The notes: generated by a model from the sequence alone, not told the origin. Numbered from the stretch's first letter, positions 22,901-62,558 are shown. The stretch: 64,000 bases of DNA from Cyclobacteriaceae bacterium (GCA_028281285.1 JANQKF010000015.1:1-64000), one strand, 5' to 3'. Made by a program: numbers and translations.

Positions 22901-25900
22901 AATGGCAATGGCGTGTTGACAGTTGACCAAGTAGATAATGGATCATATGATAACTGTGACATCACTTTAAGCATAGACAGAACTGATTTCAGTTGTAGTG
23001 ACATCGGTGAGAATAATCCTATTGTTACATTAACTGGTGTTGATCCGAGCGGGAATACAGCTTCAGCTACAGCCACAGTCACGGTTATTGACAACTCTGC
23101 TCCGACAGTTGTGACACAAAATATTACCGCAGCTTTGGACGCCACGGGCAACGCCATTATTTCCAGCACTCAAATAAACAATGGGTCTTCTGATAATTGT
23201 GGAATTTCATCTATAACTCTTGACAAGACTGAGTTTGATTGTGATAACCTTGGTGATAATACTGTGACTCTCACGGTAACGGATGTAAATGGAAACACAT
23301 CGACAGAGACTGCTACCGTAACAATAGTAGACAATATTGCTCCTACTGTGATTGCTCAGGATATTACGGTTTCTCTTGATGATTCAGGAAATGCAAGCAT
23401 CACTGTTGACCAAATAGATAACGGATCTTCAGACAATTGCGACATCACTTTAAGTCTTGATAAACTTAACTTCTCATGTGAGGATATTGGTACGAATACG
23501 GTAACACTTACAGGTGTCGATCCGAGCGGAAACAGTTCTTCGGCAACCGCTACGGTTACTGTAGTTGATGATACTGCTCCTGTAATCAACCCGCAGGACA
23601 TTACGGTCGCCTTGGATCAGGCAGGTGAGGCTTCAATCGGAGTCATAGACGTATTGAGTGAGTGGGGCAAGAATTGTGAAGTATCAGCAGCTTCAGGTGA
23701 CGGACATGCGGTTTGGTTAAGCAAATACATCAACAACAGTCAAAATGTGGATTTTGTCTTTGATAGCAATGGAGGAACCCTTACCGAATATTCCGATGGA
23801 ACGGCTACTATAACGGGTACAATTGTTAGTACCATTAATAGCAACGACAGTTATCAAGTGAACTTGTTCTTGTCCAATGGCGTGAATTGGACTGATTGGT
23901 CAGCGATGGGAAGAAGCTATAAGGATGAGAATGGTCATGCCAATGGAAATCACGTTGACTGGACCTACTACATCATGGATCCTGCTCAACCGAGCACACT
24001 TACAGGTTTGGGTGATAATGCTGGTGAAACCAAAGTATTGAACCACATGCCTTCAAGCTACTACTATGGCTTCCAGGTAGGCGTTGGTGCCAATAACAAA
24101 AACCCTGGCTATGGAATTTCCGGATGGTTTAGCTATACCAATGATCAAGGAAATGAGGTTCAGGGAGATTTTAACCTTGACATTGATAACTGTGAAATCA
24201 CTACTGGTGGTGGAAACTGCGGAGTGGAAATTGTAACCATTGATCAACCCGCATTCGACTGTGATAATCTCGGAACAAATACTGTAACTATTACTGCCAC
24301 TGATGCTTATGGTAACACAAGTACAGCGACAGCGACCGTAACTATTACGGACGATATTGCACCTACTGTGCTCACAAAGAATATCACAGTTTCACTTGAC
24401 GAAAGTGGAAACGTGTCAATTTCACCTGAAGATGTAGACAACGGATCTTCTGATAATTGTAGCCTCACATTAAGCTTGGATCAACTAAGTTTTGATTGTG
24501 ATGATGTTGGACAAAATACCGTTACACTTACCGGTACTGACAATAGCGGTAATACTGCTAGTGCTACCGCGGTAGTGACCGTTGAGGACAACATCAATCC
24601 TACAGTAATTACTCAAAACATTAGCGTTAGCCTTGATGCCAACGGTTCTGTGACCATATCTGCAAGCCAAATTGACAATGGTTCTTCTGACAACTGTGAA
24701 ATTGGCTCCATCACGCTGGATAAGGCCACTTTTGATTGTGAAGACTTAGGAGATAATACGGTAACGTTGACAGTTGTTGACTCTAATGGAAATCAATCGT
24801 CAGCAACTGCGACAGTAACTGTTGTAGATGATATCGACCCCGTTGTGATCACTCAGGACATCACTATCGCCCTTGATGCGAATGGCAATGCCACCATAAC
24901 TACAAATCAGGTAGATAACGGTTCTTATGACAATTGTGATTTGTCATTAAGCCTTGATAAAGTCAATTTCTCTTGTGATGATTTGGGTGAAAACACCGTA
25001 ACACTATCAGGTGAGGATTCCAGTGGAAACACAGGTTCTGCAACAGCAAAAGTGACTGTTGTAGACAACTCGGCTCCAGTAATTAGTGGAATGCCTTCAA
25101 ACCTTGTTTATCAGGAAACAGACACAGATTGTGGTCAGACGATCACTTGGACTACTCCTACCGTGACCGACAATTGTGATGTAACTGTCACCAGCTCACA
25201 CAATTCCGGAGATTTCTTCCCTGTAGGAACTACAACCGTAAGTTATACAGCTACAGACAATTCTGGTAATCAGACCGTGGAGTCGTTTACAGTTGAAGTT
25301 GTTCCGGTTGCCCTCGAGATTTCATTAAGCCCATCAGTTTTCAACACTGATGAAGGTTATAACATCAGCTGTGAAGGGGCAGCAGATGGTTCGATTGATG
25401 CTTCAATATCTGGAGGATGCTCACCTTATTCAATCAGTTGGAGTAATGGTAGCACGGACGAAGATATTTCAAATCTAGGGCCAGGAACTTATTCTGTGAC
25501 AGTAACGGATGCCAACGGCACGTCAGCAACAGCCCAGGTGACCCTTACAGAACCTGATGAGCTGGGAGTGGCGATGGCAATGACGCCAAGGAAGACTATA
25601 GCTGAGTATGGTGAAATGCACACCATCTATCTTGGTTACGGTGAGCAGTACGCCATGATCGAGGCGAACGCCTACGGAGGCAATGAAGGATATACCTATG
25701 ATTGGTCGCCTAGTACTGAAATACTTTGTGAGGATGAGAATGTAATTACAGTGGCCCCAGAAGTTACTACTACTTATACTGTGGTAGTTACTGATGCCAA
25801 CGGTTGCACCACTACCGAAGAATTTACCGTAAATGTTGTGGATGCAAGGTGTGTTACCAACGACAACACGCAACTTGGGGATGCTCTCCTGCCGGGAATC

Positions 25901-27907
25901 GATGATCCTCTTATCACAGGAAACGCTGGTGAAAACCAAGTTTCAAAAGAAGCACTTGATTTATTCAATACAAGAGATAAGGAGACTCAGCATGGAAAGG
26001 GCAGCGAATCTGACTCTGGATGTGACTGTGAAGGCAAGATGCAAAACTTCACGGTTAAGTATACCGGATTCTCTGGGCTAACTGTACGTGCACATGACAA
26101 ATACAAAAATGTAATCCAAACGTTCTACAATGTCCAATTTGGAGACGAACTGAAGATTAATGGTTTCGGTAGCAAAGGTGAACTTGATAGTAAAACCTAC
26201 CTCTCCATCTTCAGGTTCTATCAGGAAGTCCATACCTCTTGTTCTGAGGATATTCTAGGCAATGTTTATGGCCCATTTACCGTGATCAGCTATACTGATG
26301 GTAAGGGCAACTATTGTGACGGCTCTGGCAATTCCGATGATAGTGAAGATGACGGAGATGACGATGACGACTCCAAGGATGATGACGATGACGATAAGGA
26401 TGGTCCTAAGGGAGACGATGATGACAAAGGCGGTAAGGACGATGATGATGACAAGGACTCCAAGGATGATGACGATGACGATAAAGGCGGCAAGGACGAT
26501 GATGACGATAAGGACTCCAAGGATGATGACGATGATGACAAAGGCGGCAAGGACGATGACGATGATGATGGAGACGATGACGGGTCTTGCCAATGTGAAG
26601 GCAAAATGCAGAACTTCACCGTACGTTATACTGGCCCATCAGGCATCCAAATAAAGGCCTACGATAAAAAGAAGAAGAAAGTAATTGCTACGTTCAATAA
26701 TGTGAATTATGGTGATGAACTTACCGTCAACGGATTCAGCAGCAAGGGACAATTGGATTCTAAAACCTATCTGAAAATTGGATCGAAATACTATAAAGTA
26801 CATACTTCTTGCTCCGAAGATATTTTAGGTGATGCGTTTGGTCCATTCGAGGTAATCAGCTACACAGATGGCGAAGGCAGCTACTGTGACGGCTCTGGTC
26901 ATGGCGGTGACAATGGTGGAGGAGATGATGACGATGATGACGGAAAAGGTGATGACGATGATGATGACGGAAAAGGTGATGACGATGATGATGACGGAAA
27001 AGGTGATGATGATGACGATGACGGAAAAGGTGATGATGATGACGATGACGGAAAAGGTGATGATGACGATGATGATGATGATGATGGAGACGATGATGGG
27101 TCTTGCCAATGTGAAGGCAAAATGCAGAACTTCACACTCATCTACCGAGGAGCTTCAGGTGTTACTGTAAATGCTTACAAGAAGAAAGGTGGATTGTTAA
27201 AGACCTATACAAACGTTCAGTCTGGTGATCACCTGATCTTCGAAGGATTTGATCACAAAGGTCGTTTGGATTCCAAAACTTATGTTGAGGTTGAAGGCGG
27301 CACGAGGTACGAAGTCCACACTTCATGTTCTGAACAAATCATTGGAAAGATTTATGGACCGTTCGAAGTGTTCAGCTATACCGATGGAGAGGGAAGTTAC
27401 TGTGAAGGTAATCCTGATGGCGACATTGAGGTATGCGGAACTACCATCCCACAATGGCATGGAAAAATTACAATGTGCTACAATGGACAGACCATTTGTG
27501 TACCGAAATCCAGAGTTTACTGGTATCTCGAAAGGGGAGGTAGCTTAGGAAGTTGTGAAATCGTTGACCCAGGAAATGTTGCTGGTGGATTAATTGATGT
27601 TGAAGAGGGAGTTGTAAATAGAGTTGAAGAAAGAGCAACAGTTCCGAACGTTCAACTTTCTGCTTATCCTAACCCAACCACCGACAAAGCGACCATCAAC
27701 TTCACAGTTAATCAGGCTGGTCCTGTAGCAGTTAATGTTTACAGTACGGACGGTCTCCTGGTGGGCAAGCTTTATGAAGGTGATGCGGAAGCTAACACTA
27801 ACTATACACTGGTATTCGAGCCGGGAGATGTGGCCAATGGAGTGTACCTGGTTCGACTTCAAACTGCCGGATATATAAGAAACTTGAAATTATTAGTTAA
27901 GAGATAA
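16946..27907 (+). CDS. Giant T9SS-secreted repeat protein (Ig/HYR-like repeats, SprB-like and PKD-like domains, triple C-terminal domain, type A sorting domain)
   Basis: Signal peptide after MMYNFVNFSPRKRGIALVLFALACVVQPITAQ; tandem repeats of the form APTVVTQNITVxLDxxGxAxIxxxxIDNGSSDNCxxTLSLDKxxFDCxDLGxNTVTLTxTDxxGNxSxATATVTVVD; C-terminus YPNPTTDKATINF...GVYLVRLQTAGYIRNLKLLVKR. Confidence 0.93.
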   Translation: MMYNFVNFSPRKRGIALVLFALACVVQPITAQDSSLDQNDGISLNSEAPTIITQDITVQLGSSGTVSISPSQVDNGSFDPAGSLTLSLDISSFDCSNLGPNIVTLTGTNGLGESQSAQATVTVEDLIAPTVVTQSLTATISGGSYTIDPNDLLKFTGGRGGRGSRGSPITSDNCGIASVSASPATLSVLNLGMNIITVTVTDAAGNSSSGQTVVYLEDNDYPTAIAQDIEVELDENGLATITTDDIDNGSFDNGGINNMFLDKTTFDCMNLGVNEVTLTVIDYLNRTSTATAIVTVKDVTPPDVVTKDLTISLGEDGTYEIDPLDLLVICEDADIMISTGGPTGETEPGMGSAIDYFFVEEPTCTKDNCSITDVSVSIETFDCTHLGVNVVTVTVKDRSGNTSTATATVTVVDDIFPTVQTKNATVTLDQSGNASITVADVDDNSFDNCDITLSLDRLNFTCADVGDQVVTLTGVDPTGNSSSATAVVTVVDEAPPVAIAQPVTLTLDVNGTATLTASQVDNGSNDSCTGVTLSIDKASFDCSNLGDNVVTLTVTDGGGNAASVTTTVTIVDDLTPTVLTKNATISLDEDGNASITIVDIDNGSSDNCDLTLSLDKLNFTCDDLGQNTVTLTGVDGSGNTASATAVVTIEDNLPPSLQTLAPNYFLGPDGTFTIDPNDLLKWTSSGRGSRGGDITEDNCGIASMVVSKTVFDCNDIGQNLVTVTVTDAAGNSATATTLVTIGDNTLPTVIAQDATLELDENGMAVLDPALIDGGSYDNCDITLTVSPPTFSCDDIGVNTVTLIATDASGLSSSATATVTVVDNIAPEVVTQNITVVLDENGEAHIESRDLLVVCDDEFIPDDPNDGGSTGETVPGSGLDNYYYTTPVSLEGCTRDNCRINKIETSKLKFYCNDLGENVVTITVTDASGNSTTATAVVTVVDQTPPTVETKNISVSLDANGSVSITADDIDNGSSDNCDFTLTLDKETFDCSNIGQNIVTLTATDTYGNSTAKTAVVTVVDDIDPVVIAQDVTVVLDASGNGTLTVAEVDNGSYDNCDLTLSIDPLSFDCDDIGTTVTVTLTGVDGSGNSASAVANVTVVDNTPPIIVAPNITLALDEEGNAVIVAEEIGNGSTDNCGIGSYSLDKTEFDCDDLGNNTVTLTVTDIHGNVSTQTVTINVVDVTAPEVEVLDATVSLDENGNASIEPGDILSSYVEECTVEAYSSNNHAVWLSKYTASNANANFFFDENGGTLMQFNDGTATVTGIIVNKNDPNDSWAVQLNLAERRNWDEWSALGRSWKGNASKVGENYKDWTFYIMDTNPSNPTTLTGLGSNTGKVKTLSHKPANYNYGFQIGEAANDKNTDFGMSGWFTYENDQGNFVQGDFNLKITSCILTTGDGVCGKEVITIDKTDFDCTEAGANTVTVTVTDESGNTTVETSTVTIVDDMPPVVPTNDLTVVLDQNGNGSITIEQVDAGAYDNCEFTLVLSKTEFDCSDLGENTVTLTGTDINGNVTTSTATITVVDNQLPVVMTNNIIVALDDDGNASITIEDIDNGSYDNCDLTLELDKLNFDCDDIGQNTVTLTGTDAAGNVVSETAIVTVEDTTPPVVYTLAPSYFLDANGQVIIDPNDLLKWVGSGRGGGEITNDNCGIVSVEVSKTVFDCNDTGQNTVTVTVTDASGNSTTATTVVTIGDNTPPTIIAEDATIELDANGIATLDPAIIDGGSYDNCGVTLTVDQPTFSCDNLGPNTVTLIGTDPSGLTTTATATVTVVDNIAPTVVTQNITVTLDNNGEAVIETKDLLVVCDDTDLPDDNNGGGPVGETVPGAGDEYKEITTVADIPSCTSDNCQIASISASKKEFNCNDLGQNIVTVTVTDASGNTTTSTAVVTVVDETAPTIVAQDLTLSLDANGQASITPDQVDNGTSDNCDFTLSLDKENFDCSNVGTNVVTLTATDGSGNTSVATATITIVDDITPTVIARDVTVYLDENGNGVLTVDQVDNGSYDNCDITLSIDRTDFSCSDIGENNPIVTLTGVDPSGNTASATATVTVIDNSAPTVVTQNITAALDATGNAIISSTQINNGSSDNCGISSITLDKTEFDCDNLGDNTVTLTVTDVNGNTSTETATVTIVDNIAPTVIAQDITVSLDDSGNASITVDQIDNGSSDNCDITLSLDKLNFSCEDIGTNTVTLTGVDPSGNSSSATATVTVVDDTAPVINPQDITVALDQAGEASIGVIDVLSEWGKNCEVSAASGDGHAVWLSKYINNSQNVDFVFDSNGGTLTEYSDGTATITGTIVSTINSNDSYQVNLFLSNGVNWTDWSAMGRSYKDENGHANGNHVDWTYYIMDPAQPSTLTGLGDNAGETKVLNHMPSSYYYGFQVGVGANNKNPGYGISGWFSYTNDQGNEVQGDFNLDIDNCEITTGGGNCGVEIVTIDQPAFDCDNLGTNTVTITATDAYGNTSTATATVTITDDIAPTVLTKNITVSLDESGNVSISPEDVDNGSSDNCSLTLSLDQLSFDCDDVGQNTVTLTGTDNSGNTASATAVVTVEDNINPTVITQNISVSLDANGSVTISASQIDNGSSDNCEIGSITLDKATFDCEDLGDNTVTLTVVDSNGNQSSATATVTVVDDIDPVVITQDITIALDANGNATITTNQVDNGSYDNCDLSLSLDKVNFSCDDLGENTVTLSGEDSSGNTGSATAKVTVVDNSAPVISGMPSNLVYQETDTDCGQTITWTTPTVTDNCDVTVTSSHNSGDFFPVGTTTVSYTATDNSGNQTVESFTVEVVPVALEISLSPSVFNTDEGYNISCEGAADGSIDASISGGCSPYSISWSNGSTDEDISNLGPGTYSVTVTDANGTSATAQVTLTEPDELGVAMAMTPRKTIAEYGEMHTIYLGYGEQYAMIEANAYGGNEGYTYDWSPSTEILCEDENVITVAPEVTTTYTVVVTDANGCTTTEEFTVNVVDARCVTNDNTQLGDALLPGIDDPLITGNAGENQVSKEALDLFNTRDKETQHGKGSESDSGCDCEGKMQNFTVKYTGFSGLTVRAHDKYKNVIQTFYNVQFGDELKINGFGSKGELDSKTYLSIFRFYQEVHTSCSEDILGNVYGPFTVISYTDGKGNYCDGSGNSDDSEDDGDDDDDSKDDDDDDKDGPKGDDDDKGGKDDDDDKDSKDDDDDDKGGKDDDDDKDSKDDDDDDKGGKDDDDDDGDDDGSCQCEGKMQNFTVRYTGPSGIQIKAYDKKKKKVIATFNNVNYGDELTVNGFSSKGQLDSKTYLKIGSKYYKVHTSCSEDILGDAFGPFEVISYTDGEGSYCDGSGHGGDNGGGDDDDDDGKGDDDDDDGKGDDDDDDGKGDDDDDDGKGDDDDDDGKGDDDDDDDDDGDDDGSCQCEGKMQNFTLIYRGASGVTVNAYKKKGGLLKTYTNVQSGDHLIFEGFDHKGRLDSKTYVEVEGGTRYEVHTSCSEQIIGKIYGPFEVFSYTDGEGSYCEGNPDGDIEVCGTTIPQWHGKITMCYNGQTICVPKSRVYWYLERGGSLGSCEIVDPGNVAGGLIDVEEGVVNRVEERATVPNVQLSAYPNPTTDKATINFTVNQAGPVAVNVYSTDGLLVGKLYEGDAEANTNYTLVFEPGDVANGVYLVRLQTAGYIRNLKLLVKR
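17083..25070 (+). repeat. About 27 tandem ~75-115 aa Cys-paired beta-sandwich repeats within the giant CDS
   Basis: Direct count of repeat starts of the form x[AP]PxVxTxxxTxxLD; each unit usually carries DNC...FDC (CX12-13C). Confidence 0.9.
26924..27058 (+). repeat. 27-bp coding minisatellite, 5 tandem copies (DDDDDDGKG)
   Basis: Copies at 26924, 26951, 26978, 27005, 27032, differing only in GAT/GAC choice. Confidence 0.95.
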
Positions 27908-33031: not shown

Positions 33032-35917
33032 ATGAAAAAAATTATCATCACCGTGTTCCTACTGCTATGTGGTACCGGTCTCTATGCACAGTACTGGGTG
33101 GTCAAAGGCACAGCAGTGGACAGCACCGATCAAGTACCGCTATTTGCTTCCACTGTTGTATTGAAAAATCTGGCCGATTCGACCGTCAAGGTCAAAGCTA
33201 CGGATCAAAAGGGAGAATTCAGATTCACAGGGGTAGTCAACGGCAATTACGAGCTTACCGTGTCCTTTGTTGGCTATAAAACCTTCCAAAAGCAATTTGA
33301 GGTAAAAGATGCGACCTATCGATTCGGAACCATTGCCATGCCCATTGATAACAAGTTATTGGAAGGAGTCACTGTAGAAGGAATAAACCAGCGCGTAGTC
33401 CAGAATGGGGACACAGTAGAAATGAACGCCATTGCCTATAAGGTAAACCCGGATGCGACAGCGCAGGATCTCTTGGAGAAAATGCCTGGTGTGGTTATTC
33501 AAAATGGTCAGTTGCAAGCTCAAGGTGAGACGGTTCAACGCGTGTTGGTGGATGGTCGAGAGTTCTTTGGTGATGACCCAAATGCAGCCCTTACCAACCT
33601 TCCCGCTGAAATCATTGAGAAAATCCAAGTATACGATGAAGCAAGTGAACAATCTCGTTTTACAGGCTTCGATGATGGCGAGACCTCAAAAACATTGAAT
33701 ATCATTACCAAGGCGAGCATGCGAAACGGCACGTTCGGAAAGGTCTATGGTGGTGCCGGTTCTGATGAACGCTATAATGCGGGTGGGAGTATTAACCTCT
33801 TTCGAGAAAAAAGCAGGACGACAATTCTGGGTCAGGTGAACAATATCAATATCCAGAATTTCTCTACGAGTGATCTTCTCGGAGTAACCGCTGGTGGTGG
33901 CAGAAGAAGAGGTGGAGGAGGAATCCGTTTCAGAGGAGGTGGAGGTGCGCCAGGTGCAGCTGGAGGTGCCCGTTTTTCAAATGGAGGAAATGTAGGTGAT
34001 TTTCTGGTGGGGCAGCAAGGGGGTATTTCTGAAACGAAGGCCTTTGGTATTAACTATTCATTGAAAGCCAATGACAAACTGGATATTACGGCCAGCTACT
34101 TCTTCAACACCGCCCAGAACAATTCGGATCAATCCATATTCAGACAATTCATTCTCCCTGAGACTGCCGGACAGACTTATGAAGAAAACAGTTTTGTTCC
34201 AAGCACTAATACCAATCACAGGTTTAGCGCGAGAATTGAATACACCATTGATGAAAATAACTCGATTCAGATCCGGCCAAGACTAACCTTGCAAGAAAAT
34301 GATGGATCATCGCTTGTCACTGGTCAAACACTCAATAATGGTGAATTGCTGAATTCAACTAGTACCTTGAATACTTCTGAACTGCTGGCCTACAATCTCT
34401 CCAACAACCTACTTTGGAGGCATCGGTTTGCAAAACAAGGTAGAACACTATCAATTAACTTGAATACTGCCTATAACCAAAGCACTGGAGAGAGCTTTTT
34501 GGATTCTGAAAATGCATTCTTTAGAAATGGTATTGAAAACAACGAGGATTTAGACCAATTCTCTGACCTGGACAATCCGGGATATAATGTAAGCACCAAC
34601 TTGGTTTATACCGAGCCCCTGACTCAACGCAGTCAACTGGCATTGACCTACAGGATCGGTTATCAGAAAACCGAGTCCGATAAGGAAACCTTTGACTTCA
34701 ATGAGGCAACAGGCAATTATGACAACCTGAATATCCCATTAAGCAACACTTTCACCAGTGTGTATACTACAAATCGAATCGGGGCCGGATATAACGCAAG
34801 AGGAGAAAAGGCAAACCTCTCCATAAATCTCAACTATCAATTCGCCAAGCTCGACAATGATCAGGTGTTTCCATTTGAAGACAATATTCAACGCACGTTT
34901 GAGAATTTTGTGCCGTCCATATCCTATCGGTATCGCTTTTCACGAAGCAAAAACCTGATGATCAATTACCGTACGACAACAAATGCACCATCCATTACTC
35001 AATTGCAAGATGTGATCGATAACTCGAACCCATTGTTCGTGACGGTTGGAAATCCATCGCTTGACCAAAATTTTCAGCACTCCTTAGTTGCACGATTCGT
35101 TTCCACCAATACAGATCGATCGTCAAATTTCTTCATCATGGCAATAGCTTCATTTTCCAACAATTACATTGGCAACAGCACTACCATTGCTGATGGCAGG
35201 GGTGCCACAGTGAACGGGATTCAATTGGAACCTGGAGCTCAACTTACTCAGTTTGTCAATCTAGAAGGCTATAGAACAGTACGAAGTTTTGTCTCTTACG
35301 GAGTACCCCTAGGTTTCATCGAATCAAATCTAAACTTCACGGCAAACTTCAACTACACCAGAACGCCTGAGATGATCAATGATGAGATCAATTATGCTTC
35401 CAGTCCTACTTTTGGTTTGGGCTGGGTGCTGAGCAGTAACATAAGCGAGAAGATTGACTTCACCGTATCAAGCAATTCGAGCTACAATACAGTGAACAAC
35501 ACCCTCCAAACTGTAAGTAGCACCGATTACTTCTCACAGGCCACCCGACTAAGGCTGAATTGGATATTTGGAGATGGCTTTGTTTTTAGGTCAACAGTGA
35601 ATCATACCTACAATAGTGGATTAACAGATGGTTTCAACCAGAATTTCGCACTCTGGAACCTGGAAATTGGCAAGAAGATGTTTAAGCAAAAAGGTGAACT
35701 GAAATTGACAGTTTTTGATCTACTAGAGCAAAATCAAAGCATACAGCGAATTGTTAACGGATCCTATATTGAAGACTCACAGACGCAAATTTTAACACAA
35801 TACCTCATGTTGACCTTCACCTTCAATATCAGAAGCTTTGGCTTAGACGAGCCACTACCTGGCCAAGACAGACTTCAGCGCTTTCAACAGATGCGCAGAA
35901 GGTTTGGCGAGAATTAG
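33032..35917 (+). CDS. Outer-membrane TonB-dependent-receptor-like protein (carboxypeptidase-regulatory-like plus OMP beta-barrel)
   Basis: Signal peptide, GxVxDSxxxxPLxxAxVVLKN module, PGVVIQNGQLQAQGETVQRVLVDGREFFGDDP plug-like region, long beta-barrel. Confidence 0.88.
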   Translation: MKKIIITVFLLLCGTGLYAQYWVVKGTAVDSTDQVPLFASTVVLKNLADSTVKVKATDQKGEFRFTGVVNGNYELTVSFVGYKTFQKQFEVKDATYRFGTIAMPIDNKLLEGVTVEGINQRVVQNGDTVEMNAIAYKVNPDATAQDLLEKMPGVVIQNGQLQAQGETVQRVLVDGREFFGDDPNAALTNLPAEIIEKIQVYDEASEQSRFTGFDDGETSKTLNIITKASMRNGTFGKVYGGAGSDERYNAGGSINLFREKSRTTILGQVNNINIQNFSTSDLLGVTAGGGRRRGGGGIRFRGGGGAPGAAGGARFSNGGNVGDFLVGQQGGISETKAFGINYSLKANDKLDITASYFFNTAQNNSDQSIFRQFILPETAGQTYEENSFVPSTNTNHRFSARIEYTIDENNSIQIRPRLTLQENDGSSLVTGQTLNNGELLNSTSTLNTSELLAYNLSNNLLWRHRFAKQGRTLSINLNTAYNQSTGESFLDSENAFFRNGIENNEDLDQFSDLDNPGYNVSTNLVYTEPLTQRSQLALTYRIGYQKTESDKETFDFNEATGNYDNLNIPLSNTFTSVYTTNRIGAGYNARGEKANLSINLNYQFAKLDNDQVFPFEDNIQRTFENFVPSISYRYRFSRSKNLMINYRTTTNAPSITQLQDVIDNSNPLFVTVGNPSLDQNFQHSLVARFVSTNTDRSSNFFIMAIASFSNNYIGNSTTIADGRGATVNGIQLEPGAQLTQFVNLEGYRTVRSFVSYGVPLGFIESNLNFTANFNYTRTPEMINDEINYASSPTFGLGWVLSSNISEKIDFTVSSNSSYNTVNNTLQTVSSTDYFSQATRLRLNWIFGDGFVFRSTVNHTYNSGLTDGFNQNFALWNLEIGKKMFKQKGELKLTVFDLLEQNQSIQRIVNGSYIEDSQTQILTQYLMLTFTFNIRSFGLDEPLPGQDRLQRFQQMRRRFGEN

Positions 35918-36471
35918 ACTTTATATGCTGTATTGACCAAGGGTTGGTATTCAGACTCTATTCTAGGCCAATTGGTTTCCTCCTTCGGAAAAGGAAAATA
36001 GTGACGATGAGTTCCACGATTACCTGATGACGAAGATGCTCGAATTCTAATGCTTAACACTTCCATTCCAAATTTTTCTTCTCTACCAAAGAACTGGAGG
36101 TTGAGTCCCAAACCCTTTAGAGGAACCAGTTCTCCATTAATAATTATCTTCTCCTTGCCAAATTGAATTTGTCCCCGATCAGTTTTTCTGTTCTTGCTGT
36201 ATTCTTTTGAAGCAAGGTTGAGCATCATGAGCGTACCAAGCACTTGACCTATTATAAGCGCAGAAATGGTCCAGATGGCAATTGTGCTCCACCCTTCTCT
36301 AAAGGTGATCAAGACCGCCACTACAACAAAAACTATCCCCAACACCCTTCCTGATATCCAGGCATCTTTCTTATCCTCTTTGAACTTTTCTTCTCTGAAC
36401 ACGTGCCATTGCTTCAAATCAGAAGTCCATGTATCTAGAAAAGCCTCAATCTCATTTTGGTTTGGATTCAT
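35914..36471 (-). CDS. Hypothetical protein with two TM helices
   Basis: Clean ORF with two hydrophobic helices; no recognised family. Confidence 0.65.
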   Translation of the reverse strand: MNPNQNEIEAFLDTWTSDLKQWHVFREEKFKEDKKDAWISGRVLGIVFVVVAVLITFREGWSTIAIWTISALIIGQVLGTLMMLNLASKEYSKNRKTDRGQIQFGKEKIIINGELVPLKGLGLNLQFFGREEKFGMEVLSIRIRASSSSGNRGTHRHYFPFPKEETNWPRIESEYQPLVNTAYKV

Positions 36472-36529
36472 AACTTAAATCTACTTCCAAAATGGTAGTG
36501 AGATCATCCGAGAAATCCTGTAAAACTCT

Positions 36530-36547
36530 ATCCGTACTGGCACGGAT
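36530..36547. promoter_or_regulatory. Palindromic motif copy 1: ATCCGTACTGGCACGGAT
   Basis: 18-bp imperfect palindrome shared with 38302-38319 and 42088-42105; 59-76 bp upstream of the 36471 start. Confidence 0.7.
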
Positions 36548-36550
36548 ATG

Positions 36551-36575
36551 AAAAAAGCCCTGCGTTGCAGGGCTT
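36551..36575 (-). terminator. Rho-independent terminator of the 36622-37662 gene
   Basis: On the minus strand AAGCCCTGC-AAC-GCAGGGCTT followed by TTTT. Confidence 0.88.
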
Positions 36576-36621
36576 CAATCAATCATCGATCACTACTCGA
36601 CATATATGGTCGATCAGTGTT

Positions 36622-37662
36622 TCATTTGGCTACGGCAAGAAAGGAATCAAGTGATTTTCTGACATAACCGCGAACTACTTCACCTACTCCTTTTACATAA
36701 GCCGTTGGTTCACAAGGTATTGGCTGTGTATTTTCGACTTCCTGATCAGAGAAGTGAAAAATCCTTAAATGGCCTGCATCACTTCCCCATAAATCAACGT
36801 CAGCAGATTTTGAAGCCTTATATTTTTTCTTGCTATCAAATACTCCTTCGATACCCACATCCTTTTTGAGATTGACAAGCAACTGACCTTGATTCTTTAA
36901 ACTTTCCTTGAACATATAACTACTTGCGGTCGTCACTGACGCACTACTCATTTTACCAATTTGCACTGCCTCATTTACTGCTAGCCTCAGGTTAGGACGG
37001 ACTACCACCTTTGCAACCCCGCCCAGTCCTTTTCTCAATGACTTACTAAGGCCACCTTCTGCATTTTCTATAAAGGGAACAGCAACATTAATTTTGATAA
37101 CTATAGCTCCTCCAAGCTGGCTGGACAGCTTTGGAGAATAGGCAAAGACTCCATTTTTGGTCCTCCCTTTTTTGGTGACTTTACGTACATAATAGGAATA
37201 TCCTGTCGGAGTAGTGCCTAAGTATCCGGGAAACTGTGCCTGACTGATTTCTCCTCCTTCCATTCGTTCCCAATCACTAAACAAATCTGTCTTGCCTGCC
37301 TCATCCGCAGATACAATTTCAAAGCCATTCTGCTTCAGCTCATTGATATATTCCTGATAAACTTCGTTGGTTAGCTTCTGCATTTCATTCGGATTAATAT
37401 CAGGAATCGCTACGTTGAGTGTGGCTTTAGCGTCCCCGCGATAACCACCACCAATCTCTCTACCACCTCTGGCAATTGAGGTCTGACTAAAAGCCATTTG
37501 GTAGTTGACATTAAATTCTGCGATGTAAACTTTCTTAGGAGCCTTTGAGAATTTCTTCTGGCTGAACCCAGATTCTTTGGTCTCAATTTTCCCTACTTTT
37601 TGGGCATGGGCGAATCCTCCAATCATGAATAAAATCGCCACGATTAATAATCTCGTTTTCAT
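36622..37662 (-). CDS. Hypothetical secreted protein
   Basis: Signal peptide MKTRLLIVAILFMIGGFAHAQ; no recognised family. Confidence 0.7.
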   Translation of the reverse strand: MKTRLLIVAILFMIGGFAHAQKVGKIETKESGFSQKKFSKAPKKVYIAEFNVNYQMAFSQTSIARGGREIGGGYRGDAKATLNVAIPDINPNEMQKLTNEVYQEYINELKQNGFEIVSADEAGKTDLFSDWERMEGGEISQAQFPGYLGTTPTGYSYYVRKVTKKGRTKNGVFAYSPKLSSQLGGAIVIKINVAVPFIENAEGGLSKSLRKGLGGVAKVVVRPNLRLAVNEAVQIGKMSSASVTTASSYMFKESLKNQGQLLVNLKKDVGIEGVFDSKKKYKASKSADVDLWGSDAGHLRIFHFSDQEVENTQPIPCEPTAYVKGVGEVVRGYVRKSLDSFLAVAK

Positions 37663-37760
37663 AGTGTGATTGATTTTAATTGATGATTAAAGCTCGGGAT
37701 TGATTCAGCGCATTGACATCCCATACACGTGGTGTTTTCTATTAAGGGTTATTGGGTATT

Positions 37761-38225
37761 TTATCCGCCTACCAGTGTGAATTGTCCATAAAAACCTGGT
37801 CCACTGGCTTTTTCAAGATTGATCTCATTCAGACTATCGTCCAAATTCTGCGATACATTGAAGGCTATATCATCAATACAGGCCGCTTTGAAAGTATAAT
37901 TTCCTGATGTCGAACCGAATCTTGCGACCGGATTTTCCACCGAGAAACATTCCTCTCCATCCACTTCCACTATTAAAGTATTTGCCGATAGGGTGAATGT
38001 AGCACGTGTTCCCAGCGAGATTGGAGAATTTGGTTCAGCATGTGTCAATTCCATCACGAATGTGCCATGGATTTCCGAAGGTACCTGGGTGGCAGATTCA
38101 TCTGTTCCGACTGTTGCAGTACAGACTTGACCATCGCAGTCAGCGGCCGTTGGTTCTTCACCATTATCCCCACAGGAAAATAAACAAATTGAATAGGCTA
38201 AAACGAAGGAAAGATATTTCTTCAT
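37761..38225 (-). CDS. Putative lipoprotein
   Basis: MKKYLSFVLAYSICLFSCGDN lipobox-like start. Confidence 0.7.
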   Translation of the reverse strand: MKKYLSFVLAYSICLFSCGDNGEEPTAADCDGQVCTATVGTDESATQVPSEIHGTFVMELTHAEPNSPISLGTRATFTLSANTLIVEVDGEECFSVENPVARFGSTSGNYTFKAACIDDIAFNVSQNLDDSLNEINLEKASGPGFYGQFTLVGG

Positions 38226-38301
38226 GATTACTAAGTTTTGACTTCAACGAATAACGCCTTCCAGTCAACAAGCAACCATAGCGGCTTCGGGGTGTTTCTA
38301 T

Positions 38302-38319
38302 ATCCGAGCTAGTACGGAT
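38302..38319. promoter_or_regulatory. Palindromic motif copy 2: ATCCGAGCTAGTACGGAT
   Basis: 77-94 bp upstream of the 38225 start; matches the other two copies. Confidence 0.68.
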
Positions 38320-39143
38320 TACAGCTTTTTATAATAGATCAATTTTGGTTTAAGAGGAAACCAACCACTTTCGATTATAGGGAAAATTTTGAAATTGTCG
38401 AATAAGTCTTTATTGGCTGTCACCTTAAAAATTATATTAGGATAGTTCTTTCCATAACCATAACTGACCATTCTCATTTGAAACGGTACTTCCAAATACT
38501 CTTGGTCGAGTTGGGATTGGACATCTGCATTTATATTCTCCCAAGGGATAAATGGTGCTTTCCCTGATTTGTTGGGGTTAGGAAATTGGAAAAAGAAATA
38601 GCCTTCAAAACTTTCCCAATCCGCAGGCTCGATGAAAAGGACAGAACTGTCAGTCTTTGCCAAGCGTAAAACACTACGAGCTTCATCAATGGCACTATAC
38701 ATCTTTTCCCTTCTGATTACAGGTAACAATTCCGGAATTAATGCAGCACTAAACTCTGGTAAGTGCCAATAGGTATCACCGTCAATGAAAGCCTGACATC
38801 GATTTCTTATTGAAAATTGATCTTGAACAAAGCCATTAAATAGCAGCAGAAGATCATGGCCGTCATTACAAGCGAACGGGTATTGAACTGCTTCACTATC
38901 AAATTCCCAACCTTCCTTGAGTTCATTTAAAACAGAGATGTCGGTGGTGAAAAATGCGGTGTCTCCATTCCGACCAGCATATGGTAGAAATATTAGTTCA
39001 TAGCCTCCCTTATCAAAATCATACCTTTCGAGTGGTTTATAGCTTTCAACAGTATCCTGGCTTTTTAGCTCAGACACATTCACACAAACAAGGAATATGA
39101 ATACAATTGAAACTCTTACTTTGTGGTTCAACGATTTTGGCAT
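38319..39143 (-). CDS. Hypothetical secreted protein
   Basis: Hydrophobic N-terminus; no recognised family; closely spaced with the next upstream gene. Confidence 0.65.
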   Translation of the reverse strand: MPKSLNHKVRVSIVFIFLVCVNVSELKSQDTVESYKPLERYDFDKGGYELIFLPYAGRNGDTAFFTTDISVLNELKEGWEFDSEAVQYPFACNDGHDLLLLFNGFVQDQFSIRNRCQAFIDGDTYWHLPEFSAALIPELLPVIRREKMYSAIDEARSVLRLAKTDSSVLFIEPADWESFEGYFFFQFPNPNKSGKAPFIPWENINADVQSQLDQEYLEVPFQMRMVSYGYGKNYPNIIFKVTANKDLFDNFKIFPIIESGWFPLKPKLIYYKKL

Positions 39144-39149
39144 TCGAAA

Positions 39150-41438
39150 CTAATTGTCCTCTTTTTTCTCGGGCAGTGTAGCATCAACGTTGAATTCTTG
39201 AAGGTATTTTTTCACATCTGCATCTGTTAAGTCATGGGCATAAGAGAATTGACCAGGTTGTAGATCTTTGAAACTACTAAAATGTAATGCTCTGGTTTTT
39301 CCCTTCTCATCTTTATAGAAATGCACTACATTTTTGTCCTTCGTATACTTGCTATAAGCGTAATCAGACACTTTTTCACCTTTAATGAAAACCACCCAGC
39401 GATCACCTTTCAATTTTAGGATGTAAGCACCTTTGTTGTTTGCCGGAAGTTTTCTCATCTCCCCCATTCCCAATTGACCATCGAGATCGTAGTTCATTCC
39501 ATAGGAAACATTATTTAAAGAATCATATAATAAGGCACCCATAATTCTTTTATCGGGATCAAGTCTATGTGTATTAAATGAGCGATTATTAATTCTTTTA
39601 CCATGAGAATAGAATACTATTTTTTCTCCATTCTTATAGAGATAATAAGCATAATCACTGCTGTCAAGCATGACCGTCACCTTCTGGCCCTTCCATTCTC
39701 TTGTTGTATCAAGCGTGTAATAATTATCCATTCTTAAGTATTGCTTAGTCAAAGGAAAATATGCTAGCAACTGTTCATCCGGGGTGCGAACTGAAGAGTT
39801 TGCAATACTGGTAACCATCTGATCATCATTGGATCTCAAACTGTATCTGCCATTAAGTAATTTATTGAATCTGAAATTGCTTAAATCCATCTGAAGCTTA
39901 TTCTCACTTAGAAACTTGGCAGGGTCGTAAATGGGTTCTGCTTGGTGTAGCTCACCTATGGCTGACCCGTCAAATTTATCTCTGAAACCAGGCAAAAAAT
40001 ACCAATAGTAGATATTCCCACTCCTCATCATTGCCAGTTTATTGCCGTCTGCATCCTCGACTTGAGTCTGCAATGAAACGGATTTTCCCCTATTGCTCAA
40101 CACATAAGTTGAATCTGATAGCTTCCCCCAATAAAAATGATCTGTCGTCAGTTTCGCTTCGAAAACTTTCCCGGCACTTTTTGCAGGAAACTCAGCTAGA
40201 AAAGATTTATTAACATCACCTCGAACGTAGGCAGTATAGCTGTCTCCTATTCGATAGGCATTGTAGGTATTTCTCGATGTCCCCTTGGTAAATTGTCTTC
40301 CGTAATTGAAAACATCAATACCATCATTACTCGCTGCCCATAAAACTTTGTCGCCACCTCCGGAAATTACCTGAGCTTCCATCCATCGGGTCATGTTCGA
40401 GTTCTTATCATAACCCTTGAGAAGAACCCAGGCATTAAGGTCATTGATATAACAAAGGCGGTCATCAGTATAATCAAGATCGAAGGCTACCCCGGAATTA
40501 TATACTTTCCCATTGACCGCCACTTGCTTATTCGAGTATTGACGAATGTATTGTCCGTAATAGTCATTTGGAAATTCTAGTTTGTCTCTTCCTGTGGAAG
40601 TGCCGTCTGAATAGCTGAATCTTCTCAGCACAAGTCGCGAACGGCCGAACTGATCGTCAATAACCTCGCCTTTAATCCAATTACTTTGCTGATCGTCCTC
40701 AAACAATTGACGGTTGATACCTTGCTGATTGGTACTCACTTTGACGGTCGTTTCCGAAATATCCCTCCTATTGGCTTCATTAAGAACTTTGGTGATTTTG
40801 AATTCTCCTTGATTCGTGTGTCGGTTTTCCACAGTAATCAACTGACTATCTTTATTCTCATACTTAAAAGTTGATGCCACTTTGGTTTCGGTTTCATTTG
40901 CCAGCTTTCTACTGATCTTGGTTCTCCTATCCTGATCATCCAATTCGTAGTACTCTATGAAGCTTTGGGTTCCATTTTGCGATACTTCTACCTGGGTCAA
41001 TCTCTTTTTGTTGTCGTAGGTATAGTTCTTAACCAACGTGTTGGTACCCTGAACTTGGGAAGTTTTTATCAACAGCCCTTTTTTATAGCTATAATCTGTG
41101 ATCCTTAAAACCAAATTGTTACTCGGATTGAGAATCTCTATTTTCTCAAGTTGGCCCTTTTTGCTTAAAGTGTAGACTGTCTTATAAGACTGATTATTTT
41201 GATAGTTCTCTGTGAGCACCGAAGAAAGTCTGCCCTGATCATCGTAAGTCTCAATATCCTTTTTGACATAGGTAAGTCCTTTGTTTTCAATAAACTGATG
41301 GGTATACCACTCTATGGTAGTGAGACGCCCGTTGATCCCTTTCGATTCAAGGGTCGGAACCTTTAATACCTGGCTCCTCAAAGGCACAGTCAATAGAAAG
41401 CACAGAAAAGCGGTGATTGATGATTTTAAGAATTTCAT
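39150..41438 (-). CDS. Large secreted protein with YD/RHS-like N-terminal repeats
   Basis: Signal peptide; YDDQGRLSSV, YSYKKGLLIKTSQV, YTYDNKKRLTQVEV, YELDDQDRRTKIS repeats. Confidence 0.7.
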   Translation of the reverse strand: MKFLKSSITAFLCFLLTVPLRSQVLKVPTLESKGINGRLTTIEWYTHQFIENKGLTYVKKDIETYDDQGRLSSVLTENYQNNQSYKTVYTLSKKGQLEKIEILNPSNNLVLRITDYSYKKGLLIKTSQVQGTNTLVKNYTYDNKKRLTQVEVSQNGTQSFIEYYELDDQDRRTKISRKLANETETKVASTFKYENKDSQLITVENRHTNQGEFKITKVLNEANRRDISETTVKVSTNQQGINRQLFEDDQQSNWIKGEVIDDQFGRSRLVLRRFSYSDGTSTGRDKLEFPNDYYGQYIRQYSNKQVAVNGKVYNSGVAFDLDYTDDRLCYINDLNAWVLLKGYDKNSNMTRWMEAQVISGGGDKVLWAASNDGIDVFNYGRQFTKGTSRNTYNAYRIGDSYTAYVRGDVNKSFLAEFPAKSAGKVFEAKLTTDHFYWGKLSDSTYVLSNRGKSVSLQTQVEDADGNKLAMMRSGNIYYWYFLPGFRDKFDGSAIGELHQAEPIYDPAKFLSENKLQMDLSNFRFNKLLNGRYSLRSNDDQMVTSIANSSVRTPDEQLLAYFPLTKQYLRMDNYYTLDTTREWKGQKVTVMLDSSDYAYYLYKNGEKIVFYSHGKRINNRSFNTHRLDPDKRIMGALLYDSLNNVSYGMNYDLDGQLGMGEMRKLPANNKGAYILKLKGDRWVVFIKGEKVSDYAYSKYTKDKNVVHFYKDEKGKTRALHFSSFKDLQPGQFSYAHDLTDADVKKYLQEFNVDATLPEKKEDN

Positions 41439-41441
41439 AGC

Positions 41442-42017
41442 TTACTTATTAAAGTGTTTTAAAACCTCTTCTGGTATGAATGCTACGAGCATAAATCGCA
41501 TACCTTTTTCATAATCAACTATCTTCCAGCCATCGAAATCTTCCTTCATTACAGCGAAGAGCTGCTTTTGAGCAGTGATTGTAATCTTGCCATTTTCATC
41601 GGCCACCACATTCTCTTTACCAAATTGCCCTCCAAAGGAGTACACAAGTAGTTGGGTCATTGTTGTATCCCTCGGCTCTTCTCCCCTAACATCGAATATG
41701 AGTTGATAGCCATAGTCTACCTGCGCATATTTTACTTCCTCATAGATGTGCAAGGAACTGATACTATCGATATTGAAGTCCTTGAATGAAACCTCAGATG
41801 CAGGGTCACTGAATAGCTGTCCGTACTGCTGCATAAAGGTTTCTTTTCCCACCATGTCCATAAGTTCAGGATGAACATGATCCAGCGCCTCACTGATTTT
41901 CTTTTCTTCGAGAAGATTGAAATAGTTACTGAGATCCTCTTTGATCGAAGCTTTGTGGTCTTGAGCACAGGTGCCAAGGCTCCAAAAGAGGAGAGTAGAA
42001 ACAATAAGATTTTTCAT
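41442..42017 (-). CDS. Hypothetical secreted protein
   Basis: Signal peptide MKNLIVSTLLFWSLGTCAQ; start of an apparent three-gene operon. Confidence 0.68.
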   Translation of the reverse strand: MKNLIVSTLLFWSLGTCAQDHKASIKEDLSNYFNLLEEKKISEALDHVHPELMDMVGKETFMQQYGQLFSDPASEVSFKDFNIDSISSLHIYEEVKYAQVDYGYQLIFDVRGEEPRDTTMTQLLVYSFGGQFGKENVVADENGKITITAQKQLFAVMKEDFDGWKIVDYEKGMRFMLVAFIPEEVLKHFNK

Positions 42018-42087
42018 GATGATTGATTTAGCTCAAAAATAGAGAGCCTTTGACCTTAGGAAAATACGTTAATCTACTGATTTCGCC

Positions 42088-42105
42088 ATCAGTGCTGGCA
42101 CGGAT
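42088..42105. promoter_or_regulatory. Palindromic motif copy 3: ATCAGTGCTGGCACGGAT
   Basis: 71-88 bp upstream of the 42017 start; matches the other two copies. Confidence 0.7.
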
Positions 42106-42112
42106 AAAACAC

Positions 42113-42550
42113 TCAGGCAAGGAAAATGAGTGCCATGGCAAACGCCACTCCAAATCCGATCAACGAACCGATAAAATAACGCAACCCCTTTTTCGACACC
42201 ACCAACTGGTCTTGATCTGAAAGCGACTCAAACTCACTAATTGTACTGTTATAACTAGACTCCGTTCCTAGCGTATATCGCACAATTGGCAAAACAATGA
42301 TAAATGGCACGATTGCCACCAACCGACCAATAGAACGTCCTCTGCGCCTTCCAAAAATATCTTCGATGAGATCTGTAAATGCATCCAGAAAGTCCTCTGA
42401 AATTACCATAGCAAGTACAACAATCAATATGATATTTAGGGCCGTACTTACAATAAGCAACCGAGTTCCATTGGAGCGAGCACTATCTTCCTTTCCTTTA
42501 GGCTTTAATTCATAGTATTGGTTACAATAGACGGCTTTAAACACGTTCAT
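42113..42550 (-). CDS. Small membrane protein
   Basis: Hydrophobic helices; adjacent to the response regulator gene. Confidence 0.6.
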   Translation of the reverse strand: MNVFKAVYCNQYYELKPKGKEDSARSNGTRLLIVSTALNIILIVVLAMVISEDFLDAFTDLIEDIFGRRRGRSIGRLVAIVPFIIVLPIVRYTLGTESSYNSTISEFESLSDQDQLVVSKKGLRYFIGSLIGFGVAFAMALIFLA

Positions 42551-42551
42551 C

Positions 42552-43169
42552 TTAAATAAGGTTGTTGGCGTAAGCGAATTTGATCAGACCGACCAATGAG
42601 CTGGTCTTGGTCTTCCTGAATATATTTTTCCTGTGCGTCTCTACTGTTCTCTCGCTAATGAACAGTTCTTCGGCAATCATTTTATTGGAGTACTCCTGGG
42701 AAATGAGTTTGAGTATTTCCCTCTCTCTAGCTGTTAGTAACTTGCCTTCCGAGGGTTCATACAGGCTTTTGACCAACATGGAGTTGATATCATTTGACAT
42801 ATACATTTTTCCTGCCCTGACTGCATATATAGCCTCCAGCAACTCCTCTTTGGTGTCCTTTTTTAAAACATAGCCATTAACACCTTCCTTAAGGATTTCC
42901 CTGACCAAATGTGCCTCATCGTGCATACTTAAGACAATGAACTTGGTATCAGGCAGAATCCTCTTCGTTTTTTGAACCAGGCTCAGTCCATCATCATCAC
43001 CAAGGTTATAGTCTGTGATTACCAAATCTGGCTTGTACTTATCGATCGACTGAATTGCATCAGGTACCGAACCCAAACAATCTACTACAGTGAGCATATC
43101 GTCTTCCTCGATGAGCTTTTTCAGTCCATCGAGCAGTATTGTGTGGTCGTCTACAAGGATTATTTTCAT
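42552..43169 (-). CDS. LuxR/NarL-family response regulator
   Basis: MKIILVDDHTILLDGLKKLI receiver; LTAREREILKLISQEYSNKMIAEELFISERTVETHRKNIFRKT HTH. Confidence 0.95.
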   Translation of the reverse strand: MKIILVDDHTILLDGLKKLIEEDDMLTVVDCLGSVPDAIQSIDKYKPDLVITDYNLGDDDGLSLVQKTKRILPDTKFIVLSMHDEAHLVREILKEGVNGYVLKKDTKEELLEAIYAVRAGKMYMSNDINSMLVKSLYEPSEGKLLTAREREILKLISQEYSNKMIAEELFISERTVETHRKNIFRKTKTSSLVGLIKFAYANNLI

Positions 43170-43257
43170 GGGGTATACAGCGTCAAACTTTGCTGCAAGG
43201 CTCAACATCCATTTCATGAAGGCAAAGTACCAGTACTAATCTATCAAAAATATCCGA

Positions 43258-45486
43258 CTAAGACGTGATTTGATCCTCAGTGGCAGTGGGTATGGCCTCC
43301 TCTGAGTTTAATGCCAGATTCACCGACATAAAAGTGCCATTTATCCCTTCTCTACTATCTAATTCAAACACCCCGTTAATCAAGTTTAGTCTACTGCTAA
43401 TATTTCGCCAACCATTGCCTTTGCCTGAATAGAAAGCTGCCGTATTGAAGCCTTTGCCATCATCTTCAATAGATAGCGTCAGTTCGTTCTGATCTCTTGT
43501 GAGCTGAAGAGTGATTAATTGGGCATCGGAGTATTTCAAAATGTTATTGACCCATTCCTGACAGATTCTGTACAGGGATACCTCGATCAATTCCGGAAGT
43601 CTTTCATCGGCATCAAAAACCAAAACCTCTAGCGTCTTTTGACCCGTTTCGGTGACACGAATTCCAAATTCCTTCAGAGCTGCTACCAGGCCATTCTTTA
43701 CCAAAGTCTGAGGCATAAGATCAAAACAAATATTCCGAAGCTCAGAGTACATATCATTAATTACGGCTTCACTTTTCTCGAATACTTCAACTCGGTCCTC
43801 TGTAGCGGTCTTACCATTGGAGTTGAGATTAGCAAGGTTCATTTTAAGAACAGAAATCAGCTGGCCAAATCCATCGTGAAGGTCTTGTGCAAATCGATTT
43901 CGCTCTTTCTCCTGAGAGTTGATCACCGCATTGATCTCCGCCTCCCGAACTTTTAATTCAGATTCCCTACGTATAAGTTCTTGTTTTCTTTTCTCCCGGT
44001 TTCGCACCAAGACTACAAGGGTGATAAGAAGGAAAGCAACTAAAATCAACACAATCAGAAACAACTGATTTCTTTGAAGTCTGGCTTCCTGTACTCCAAG
44101 CTGTGACTCTTGCAAAGCAATTTGCTGTTCCTTTTTCTCTGTTTCATACTGGACGTTTAAATCCTCAACATTTTTCAAATGTTTGGCATTCAGTAAAGAG
44201 TCTTTCTTGATCTGGGCCTCCTCACTGTATTCCAAGGCTTTCCTATAGTTTCCCCTACTTTTTTCATAGTTCGAAAGCGAGCGATACACAGTTTCCAGAT
44301 CTGATATATCACCTACCTCAATCGCCTTCTCGAGTCCTAGTCTGAAATTTGATCTGGCCTTGCTATGTTGATTCAGTTTCGCATACAATTCGCCAAGGCC
44401 AACGTGGACAAGAGAAAGTCCCGAGCCATCTCCCATTGACTGTTTCAATTTTAGCGCACTTTCGTAATAGGTCAGCGCATCCGAGTCATTGCCTTTAAAT
44501 GCATTTAAACGTCCAAGGTTATTATGACTTATGGAAAGCAGGTAATCACTGGAAGCTTCCACCGCATATTTGGCACCCTCTGAATAGTAATAAATAGCCG
44601 AGTCCATATCTGAAAACTCCTCCTCATACACTGTCCCCAACCCATTAAGAGTAAAGGCCATCAATTGAGCATTCTGACCGGAGTCGTTTAGTATATCCAG
44701 GCTCCGGATCAAATTTTCATGAGCATGCTCAAAGTTGTTCAGTTCGATGGCAACAGTTCCCATGTTGATCAGGGCATAGGTCATCATCACATCCAGAGAG
44801 AGGCTTTCATACATTTTCAAAGCGCTTTGAAAGTTTACATAAGCCGAATCAAGATCACCTGCATTGACGAGTAAATTGCCTTTGTTTAAATATGAATCAG
44901 CTGCTCTTCTTGGTAAAGCCAACTCTTCATAGATCGCAATACTTTGATCAATGTAATTCGCAGCATCGGCAAATTTGCCTTGTCGCTGCAGGACTATTGA
45001 CAGGTTATTCATCGAAGCAGCCTGAGCACTCAAATCCTGAGCCTCAACACGTTTGTCCAATGACATTCTATAGAAGATTAGCGCGCTGTCATATTTACTC
45101 TGATTGTTATAAATACTACCAAAGGTATTGTAGACATCAGAAATCGTAAGTGCATCCTTTGTGGCAAGGGCAAATTCCTCAGCCCGTAAAACGAATAGCT
45201 TAGCGGAATCAAACTTGAATAAATTTTTGTAGCTCCATGCAGCCTGATTGTATGCCTGACTTTTGGAAAGGTTCGTTTCAGCCAGGCTTGTTGCTTCCAA
45301 GGAATACTTCAAGGCTTCTTCACGATCTTGGCTATTTCTTGCCAAACTCACGAGTATTTTAGCTTTTTCTGATGGATTTACTTCATTATTGAGAAGATTC
45401 GTCAGACTGTCCTGTACCGAATTCTGTGCGTAGTTCAGAACAGGCAAGAAAGCCAGGATTAATACAAAAAATCGCTTTCCCAACAT
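43258..45486 (-). CDS. TPR-containing sensor histidine kinase (HisKA_3 type)
   Basis: Signal peptide, TPR repeats, TM, QEKERNRFAQDLHDGFGQLISVLKMNL, LSIEDDGKGFN. Confidence 0.93.
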   Translation of the reverse strand: MLGKRFFVLILAFLPVLNYAQNSVQDSLTNLLNNEVNPSEKAKILVSLARNSQDREEALKYSLEATSLAETNLSKSQAYNQAAWSYKNLFKFDSAKLFVLRAEEFALATKDALTISDVYNTFGSIYNNQSKYDSALIFYRMSLDKRVEAQDLSAQAASMNNLSIVLQRQGKFADAANYIDQSIAIYEELALPRRAADSYLNKGNLLVNAGDLDSAYVNFQSALKMYESLSLDVMMTYALINMGTVAIELNNFEHAHENLIRSLDILNDSGQNAQLMAFTLNGLGTVYEEEFSDMDSAIYYYSEGAKYAVEASSDYLLSISHNNLGRLNAFKGNDSDALTYYESALKLKQSMGDGSGLSLVHVGLGELYAKLNQHSKARSNFRLGLEKAIEVGDISDLETVYRSLSNYEKSRGNYRKALEYSEEAQIKKDSLLNAKHLKNVEDLNVQYETEKKEQQIALQESQLGVQEARLQRNQLFLIVLILVAFLLITLVVLVRNREKRKQELIRRESELKVREAEINAVINSQEKERNRFAQDLHDGFGQLISVLKMNLANLNSNGKTATEDRVEVFEKSEAVINDMYSELRNICFDLMPQTLVKNGLVAALKEFGIRVTETGQKTLEVLVFDADERLPELIEVSLYRICQEWVNNILKYSDAQLITLQLTRDQNELTLSIEDDGKGFNTAAFYSGKGNGWRNISSRLNLINGVFELDSREGINGTFMSVNLALNSEEAIPTATEDQITS

Positions 45487-62513: not shown

Positions 62514-62515
62514 AT

Positions 62516-62534
62516 TTCTACAACTATTGTAGAA
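62516..62534. promoter_or_regulatory. Operator-like palindrome TTCTACAACTATTGTAGAA, copy 1
   Basis: 8-bp half sites, immediately upstream of the PadR start. Confidence 0.8.
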
Positions 62535-62558
62535 CAAATATAAAAATCAACGTGACAT

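Follow-up and report, generated by a model that had tools for sequence, protein, structure and literature searches.

A tandem inverted-repeat promoter element linked to a NarL/LuxR-type two-component system in Roseivirga and other Cytophagales

Pairs of a TPR-type histidine kinase and a LuxR-type response regulator are common in Bacteroidota. Here we analysed a stretch of 64,000 nucleotides from a Cyclobacteriaceae bacterium (GCA_028281285.1 JANQKF010000015.1:1-64000; hereafter, the window), in which three intergenic copies of an 18-base-pair (bp) palindrome lie next to the genes of such a pair. The palindrome is the upstream half of a larger conserved promoter design that comprises two predicted docking sites (Site I, the palindrome itself, and Site II) and a −7 start box, and the three copies are very probably the upstream operators of promoters that are controlled by the adjacent two-component system. 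The original prediction of a regulon of this NarL/LuxR regulator thus remains the best reading, on the basis of co-occurrence with the regulator, 7-2-7 site geometry, a distance to the −7 box that would suit an activator and a variant of the element before the regulator gene. Judging by the named relatives of the regulator, the genome belongs to the genus Roseivirga.

All three palindromes were borne out (Table 1). With up to 3 mismatches allowed, the window contains 6 strand-matches (0.58 expected), a number reached in 0 of 100 shuffles. A scan of the whole genome (5,162,273 bases) returned exact matches only at these three sites, compared with 0.004 predicted from base composition; the remaining matches have 2 mismatches each. 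On the minus strand in every case, the palindrome is separated by 58, 76 and 70 bases from the start codons at 36471, 38225 and 42017, respectively. Three similar copies within 5.6 kilobases (kb) might be what is left of a small repeat, either mobile or duplicated, but they keep a single orientation to the gene and a fixed distance to the −7 box and start codon, occur in 12 species and many genera before unrelated genes, and lack flanking duplications. That origin is exceedingly improbable, as had been proposed from the outset.

We aligned 50–51 related sites from Roseivirga and other Cytophagales, anchored on the palindrome and read towards the gene. Four sites associated with giant TPR proteins (L185, L186, L188 and L192) were left out, as Site II is ill-defined there, and palindromes that fall within a gene or lack the remainder of the element (L029, L031 and L189–L191) were set aside as chance. 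The flanking sequences had been described as unrelated, a view that holds by eye but fails on alignment: once 50 orthologous or analogous sites are compared, a second inverted repeat and a −7 box stand out, each at a constant distance. Site I has the consensus NTMCGTRCYRGYACGKAN. Site II is a degenerate inverted repeat (ATACC-N8-GGTAT) that begins 5–6 bases after Site I, with a centre-to-centre spacing of 24 bp (23 in some sites). Both have 7-2-7 geometry over 16 bp from T to A (TCCGTRC-YR-GYACGGA in Site I and TACCnnn-nn-nnnGGTA in Site II), and each is predicted to bind a dimer.

Downstream of the two sites, a TAnnTTTG box with at most 1 mismatch starts at +47 in 24 of the 50 sites and at +46 in 6 more, and hardly anywhere else (30 of 50 in total; shuffle mean, 0.9). 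The −7-like box that had been noted between copy 3 and its gene (TATTTTTG) is confirmed. In mapped flavobacterial promoters, TAnnTTTG spans −12 to −5 (PMC9723704); this register predicts a transcript start at +59, where 70% of sites have an A, and consequently places the centre of Site I at −67.5 and that of Site II at −43.5. Several annotated starts that are too early match this register once the next internal methionine is taken. At copy 1, the predicted start falls on the first base of the annotated ATG (A, 36471), so the message may be leaderless unless translation begins further in; several relatives also show the 57–59-base spacing seen at this copy. No conserved −33 TTG was found across the aligned sites. 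ATACC and GGTAT were also considered as the −35 and −10 elements of an extracytoplasmic function sigma factor promoter, a candidate that was ruled out because they lie too close together and are followed, further downstream, by the true −7 box.

The pattern of variation within Site I bears on whether it acts as DNA or as RNA. Position 7 and its partner, position 12, vary independently (counts of 16, 12, 11 and 11; P = 0.78). The central step takes the form CA, TG or TA, with CG in no site, which is what two half-sites bound by protein on either side of a flexible centre should show. Because the half-sites vary independently, the element is best read as a DNA operator and not as an RNA hairpin. 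A hairpin that acts as a terminator or attenuator between genes would account for the near-perfect inverted repeats and for the position of copies 2 and 3, which lie 7 bases or fewer from upstream stop codons; however, the palindrome carries A–C mismatches when read in the transcribed sense, is followed by no T-run, lies upstream of the −7 box and keeps its distance to the start codon and not to the stop codon. Neither the compensatory pairing nor the T-run of an RNA hairpin or intrinsic terminator was found, and the window has no Rfam match. The arms of Site II likewise lack covariation (158 of 250 pairs, compared with 156.6 in shuffles), a full test that did away with the hint of pairing given by compensatory-looking changes in L085 and L105. 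We therefore regard a role as RNA as very improbable.

The CGGAT and GGGTAT halves look interchangeable. In the orthologous promoter of a 345-amino-acid gene (proteins 41–88% identical), the right half of Site I reads ACGGAT in L069 and L071, and GGGTAK in L072, L073, L078–L080, L091 and L101; furthermore, hybrid Site I copies combine one CGGAT half with one GGGTAT half. The recognition helix of the regulators (ISERTVETHRKNIF) is nearly invariant, with minor changes at most. Interchangeable halves and a shared helix together would tie Sites I and II to one protein.

Domain searches confirmed the response regulator and TPR histidine kinase at 42552–45486. The regulator matches PF00072 (E = 7.4e-22) and PF00196 (E = 5.4e-20) and belongs to the NarL/FixJ (LuxR-type) family; its true start is probably Met17 at 43169. 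The kinase carries HisKA_3 and HATPase_c domains, and the kinase–regulator pairing is retained in relatives. By curated models, the regulator is not an orthologue of the nitrate/nitrite regulator NarL (NF007935; 147 bits, cut-off of 250) and the kinase is not FimS (NF053520; 86 bits, E = 1.6e-24, cut-off of 600).

The distribution of the element follows that of the regulator. Among 19 Roseivirga genomes, an orthologue of the regulator (75–86% identity) is present in 12, whereas the other 7 have only paralogues of around 40% identity or less. The palindrome occurs in 12 of 12 genomes with the orthologue and 0 of 7 without it (Fisher P = 2e-5); the lone match among the 7, in G012, is a single chance match with 2 mismatches. 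Each of the 12 genomes has 1–3 copies downstream of the kinase–regulator pair, in the same orientation, before operons with gene content that differs between species. Across 80 sampled loci of regulator relatives, the strict palindrome adjoins many of the regulators and the element is found beside most. A degenerate exact pattern identified sites in 14 of 50 genomes, compared with 0 for the reversed pattern. An iterated profile of the element (E ≤ 0.1) gave 121 matches in the 80 loci and the window, many of them directly before or directly after the regulator gene, compared with 0 when the sequence was reversed; the sole match at that level in a further 245 kb, from other loci, was the promoter of another copy of the regulator (L174). 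Among the best first-look candidates in the window’s genome, strong profile scores were confined to this locus, and in a phylum-wide draw (E ≤ 1e-5) the element was found in 3 of 299 genomes, all of the same family.

The profile added two degenerate elements in the window: one before a 346-amino-acid gene (37684–37740) and one before the regulator gene itself (43222–43293; E = 0.0004). The latter, which has a similar counterpart in 10 other Roseivirga genomes, replaces the weak GTACCAGTAC core (43227–43236) to which the original prediction had pointed; that core overlaps the −7 box, shows no conservation across 10 other Roseivirga genomes and is a coincidence. In most Roseivirga, the regulator’s own promoter (43222–43229 in the window; L041–L047) has TACCTTGC, of the form TAnnTTGY, where the targets have TAnnTTTG. 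The TAnnTTGY form is SM5 in Flavobacterium psychrophilum (PMC9723704), and the regulator is possibly autoregulated through a different sigma factor.

From this architecture and by analogy with NarL, we infer that two dimers would activate the target promoters and the regulator’s own. The phosphorylated regulator would bind as two tandem dimers, at Site I (−67.5) and Site II (−43.5); given that Site II abuts the position at which a −33 box would lie, the bound regulator would bring RNA polymerase to the −7 box, TAnnTTTG. The units activated in this way would be the operon that begins at 42017 and the genes that begin at 38225, 36471 and, probably, 37662, with activating feedback on the regulator gene. 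The half-site consensus of NarL is TACY, which the TACC half of Site II resembles and from which the Site I half (TCCGTRC) differs. In Escherichia coli, NarL activates the ogt promoter through a tandem pair of 7-2-7 sites, at −44.5 and −77.5, and an engineered version of it from −67.5 (PMC7419079). The two systems are thus alike in regulator family (receiver and GerE helix-turn-helix), repeat geometry and the use of two tandem dimer sites at comparable positions, but the sites in the window are 24 bp apart compared with 33 bp in ogt, and they are combined with a Bacteroidetes −7 promoter, a TPR-type kinase and unrelated, mostly exported targets.

The same sites and regulator could also serve repression or dual control, with the dimers holding promoters off until the phosphorylation state changes. 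As Site II ends beside the −33 region, a dimer on it could also block polymerase, and NarL itself both activates and represses: of 26 regions listed for it, 11 are activated (PMC7419079). However, the absence of a −33 box is typical of activator-dependent promoters, the −7 box and transcript start are free of site overlap, and −43.5 and −67.5 match known activating positions of NarL; repression or dual control is therefore unlikely. Two other systems offer further comparisons. FimS/FimR of Porphyromonas gingivalis, from the same phylum, shares the general types of TPR kinase and LuxR-type regulator, but its targets are fimbrial and the kinase in the window scores far below the FimS cut-off. 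DevR/DosR-type proteins of Actinobacteria are NarL-family response regulators that act on 18–20-bp palindromes, often in tandem; their operator sequence, kinases and targets are unrelated to those described here.

Several observations weigh against assigning the sites to the adjacent regulator. In the window, the −7 box of copy 2 matches poorly, as does Site II of copy 1. Within the regulator promoter, the Site I-like stretch falls inside the 3′ end of the kinase gene, so its conservation may partly reflect codon constraint. The regulator and sites are physically linked, and their co-occurrence within the genus may partly reflect joint loss of one locus. Some of the loci used to test the element profile had also served to train it, the motif of the recognition helix is widespread in Bacteroidota regulators, and weaker matches to Site II and the −7 box occur in Roseivirga genomes that lack the regulator, some of them 2–3 kb from a paralogue. 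The last two points, together with 18 GerE-domain matches in the genome, would fit operators of a different transcription factor, such as a global or paralogous response regulator, to which the linked two-component system is incidental. There is little probability in this, less than in repression: the 7 Roseivirga genomes without the orthologue lack the strict motif although they have paralogues, and in other genera, where gene content differs, the element still tracks the regulator lineage. Control by the adjacent pair remains the preferred interpretation.

In G001, G002, G012 and G013, all of which lack the regulator, Site II and the −7 box occur without Site I, 2–3 kb from a paralogous regulator and possibly before its kinase gene; this part of the code is probably shared with paralogues. 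In addition, the Indibacter genome from which L069 derives (G075) has around 15 element matches, mostly of Site II and the −7 box only, which suggests either a larger regulon or several regulators with a common half-site.

Table 1 Predicted regulatory sites and associated genes in the window
Feature	Position	Strand	Remarks
Site I, copy 1, ATCCGTGCCAGTACGGAT towards gene	36530..36547	-	Predicted dimer site at −67.5
Site II, copy 1, TTACAGGATTTCTCGGAT, weak left half	36506..36523	-	Predicted second dimer site, −43.5
−7 box, copy 1, TAGATTTA	36476..36483	-	Predicted transcript start 36471
Target gene 1, 185 amino acids, membrane segments predicted by eye, weak DUF2207_C match	35914..36471	-	
Extra degenerate element (Site II and −7 box) before 346-amino-acid gene	37684..37740	-	Profile E 0.006; E 0.155 genome-wide
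Target gene, 346-amino-acid exported protein	36622..37662	-	
Site I, copy 2, ATCCGTACTAGCTCGGAT	38302..38319	-	Last base overlaps stop codon of upstream gene
Site II, copy 2, ACACCCCGAAGCCGCTAT	38278..38295	-	
−7 box position, copy 2, GTTATTCG, poor match	38248..38255	-	Predicted start 38243
Target, 154-amino-acid small exported protein, putative lipoprotein	37761..38225	-	Cys near end of signal peptide
Site I, copy 3, ATCCGTGCCAGCACTGAT	42088..42105	-	
Site II, copy 3, ATCAGTAGATTAACGTAT	42064..42081	-	
−7 box, copy 3, TATTTTTG	42034..42041	-	Predicted transcript start 42029 (A)
Target operon, exported proteins without known family	38319..42017	-	191 amino acids (41442-42017), 762 amino acids (39150-41438), 274 amino acids (38319-39143)
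Regulator-gene element: Site I-like ATACCCACTGCCACTGAG	43276..43293	-	
Regulator-gene element: Site II-like ATCACGTCTTAGTCGGAT	43252..43269	-	
Regulator-gene element: −7 box TACTTTGC	43222..43229	-	
NarL/LuxR-type response regulator (Response_reg and GerE)	42552..43217	-	
TPR sensor histidine kinase (TPR repeats, HisKA_3, HATPase_c)	43258..45486	-	
145-amino-acid membrane protein	42113..42550	-	Directly after regulator in 5 Roseivirga genomes

The predicted targets in the window are exported or membrane proteins of no known family. Target gene 1 has homologues in 6 other Roseivirga loci. The 346-amino-acid family is the most recurrent target, found in Roseivirga, Marivirga, Indibacter, Belliella and other genera with low identity from genus to genus (17–64% across the set), and the orthologous gene in L042 is likewise preceded by a degenerate element. 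This protein has no Pfam, NCBIfam, PADLOC or PDB sequence match, and its AlphaFold model, of modest quality (mean predicted local distance difference test score, 67.5), gave only insignificant matches to CsgG-, FlgT- and HpaA-like folds. In other genomes, several sites that are not linked to the regulator precede homologues of linked targets, including PD40/OmpA-type proteins (L187, L193, L194 and L118) and a ‘KTYKISRASKRG’ family (L197, L113, L117 and L119). Beside copy 1, an inverted repeat with a flanking A/T run (36550–36575; AAAAAAGCCCTGCGTTGCAGGGCTT) is a probable intrinsic terminator of the 346-amino-acid gene.

Two further features lie elsewhere in the window. At 62514–62583, the palindrome TTCTACAACTATTGTAGAA occurs twice in tandem (43 bp apart, 96% identity) just before a PadR-type regulator gene (62187–62537, minus strand), which is followed by a MacB/FtsX-type permease gene (59530–62187, minus strand), with an acetyltransferase gene on the other side (62719, plus strand); the palindrome pair is likely to be a PadR operator. 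An open frame of 3,749 amino acids at 16658–27907, with HYR, SprB repeat and type IX secretion C-terminal sorting domains, encodes a giant secreted adhesin-like protein.

Our search of open-access papers yielded no operator for a kinase–regulator pair of this lineage, nor anything lineage-specific. One tentative idea, which we hold to be possible though not probable, is that the pair and the rigid Site I–Site II–minus 7 cassette form an exchange platform, in which the pair is kept while the exported output is swapped from species to species at the same locus, the cassette standing before different and often unrelated exported proteins, and that a two-letter half-site code (CGGAT or GGGTAT) may tune individual promoters. 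The element amounts to a complete and testable promoter grammar of two predicted dimer sites, exact spacing, a −7 box and a predicted transcript start, and suggests that NarL-style tandem activation can work with the unusual −7 promoter of Bacteroidetes. The list of candidate direct targets in this genome, together with the sites in its relatives, would offer a way to find the signal that the system senses.

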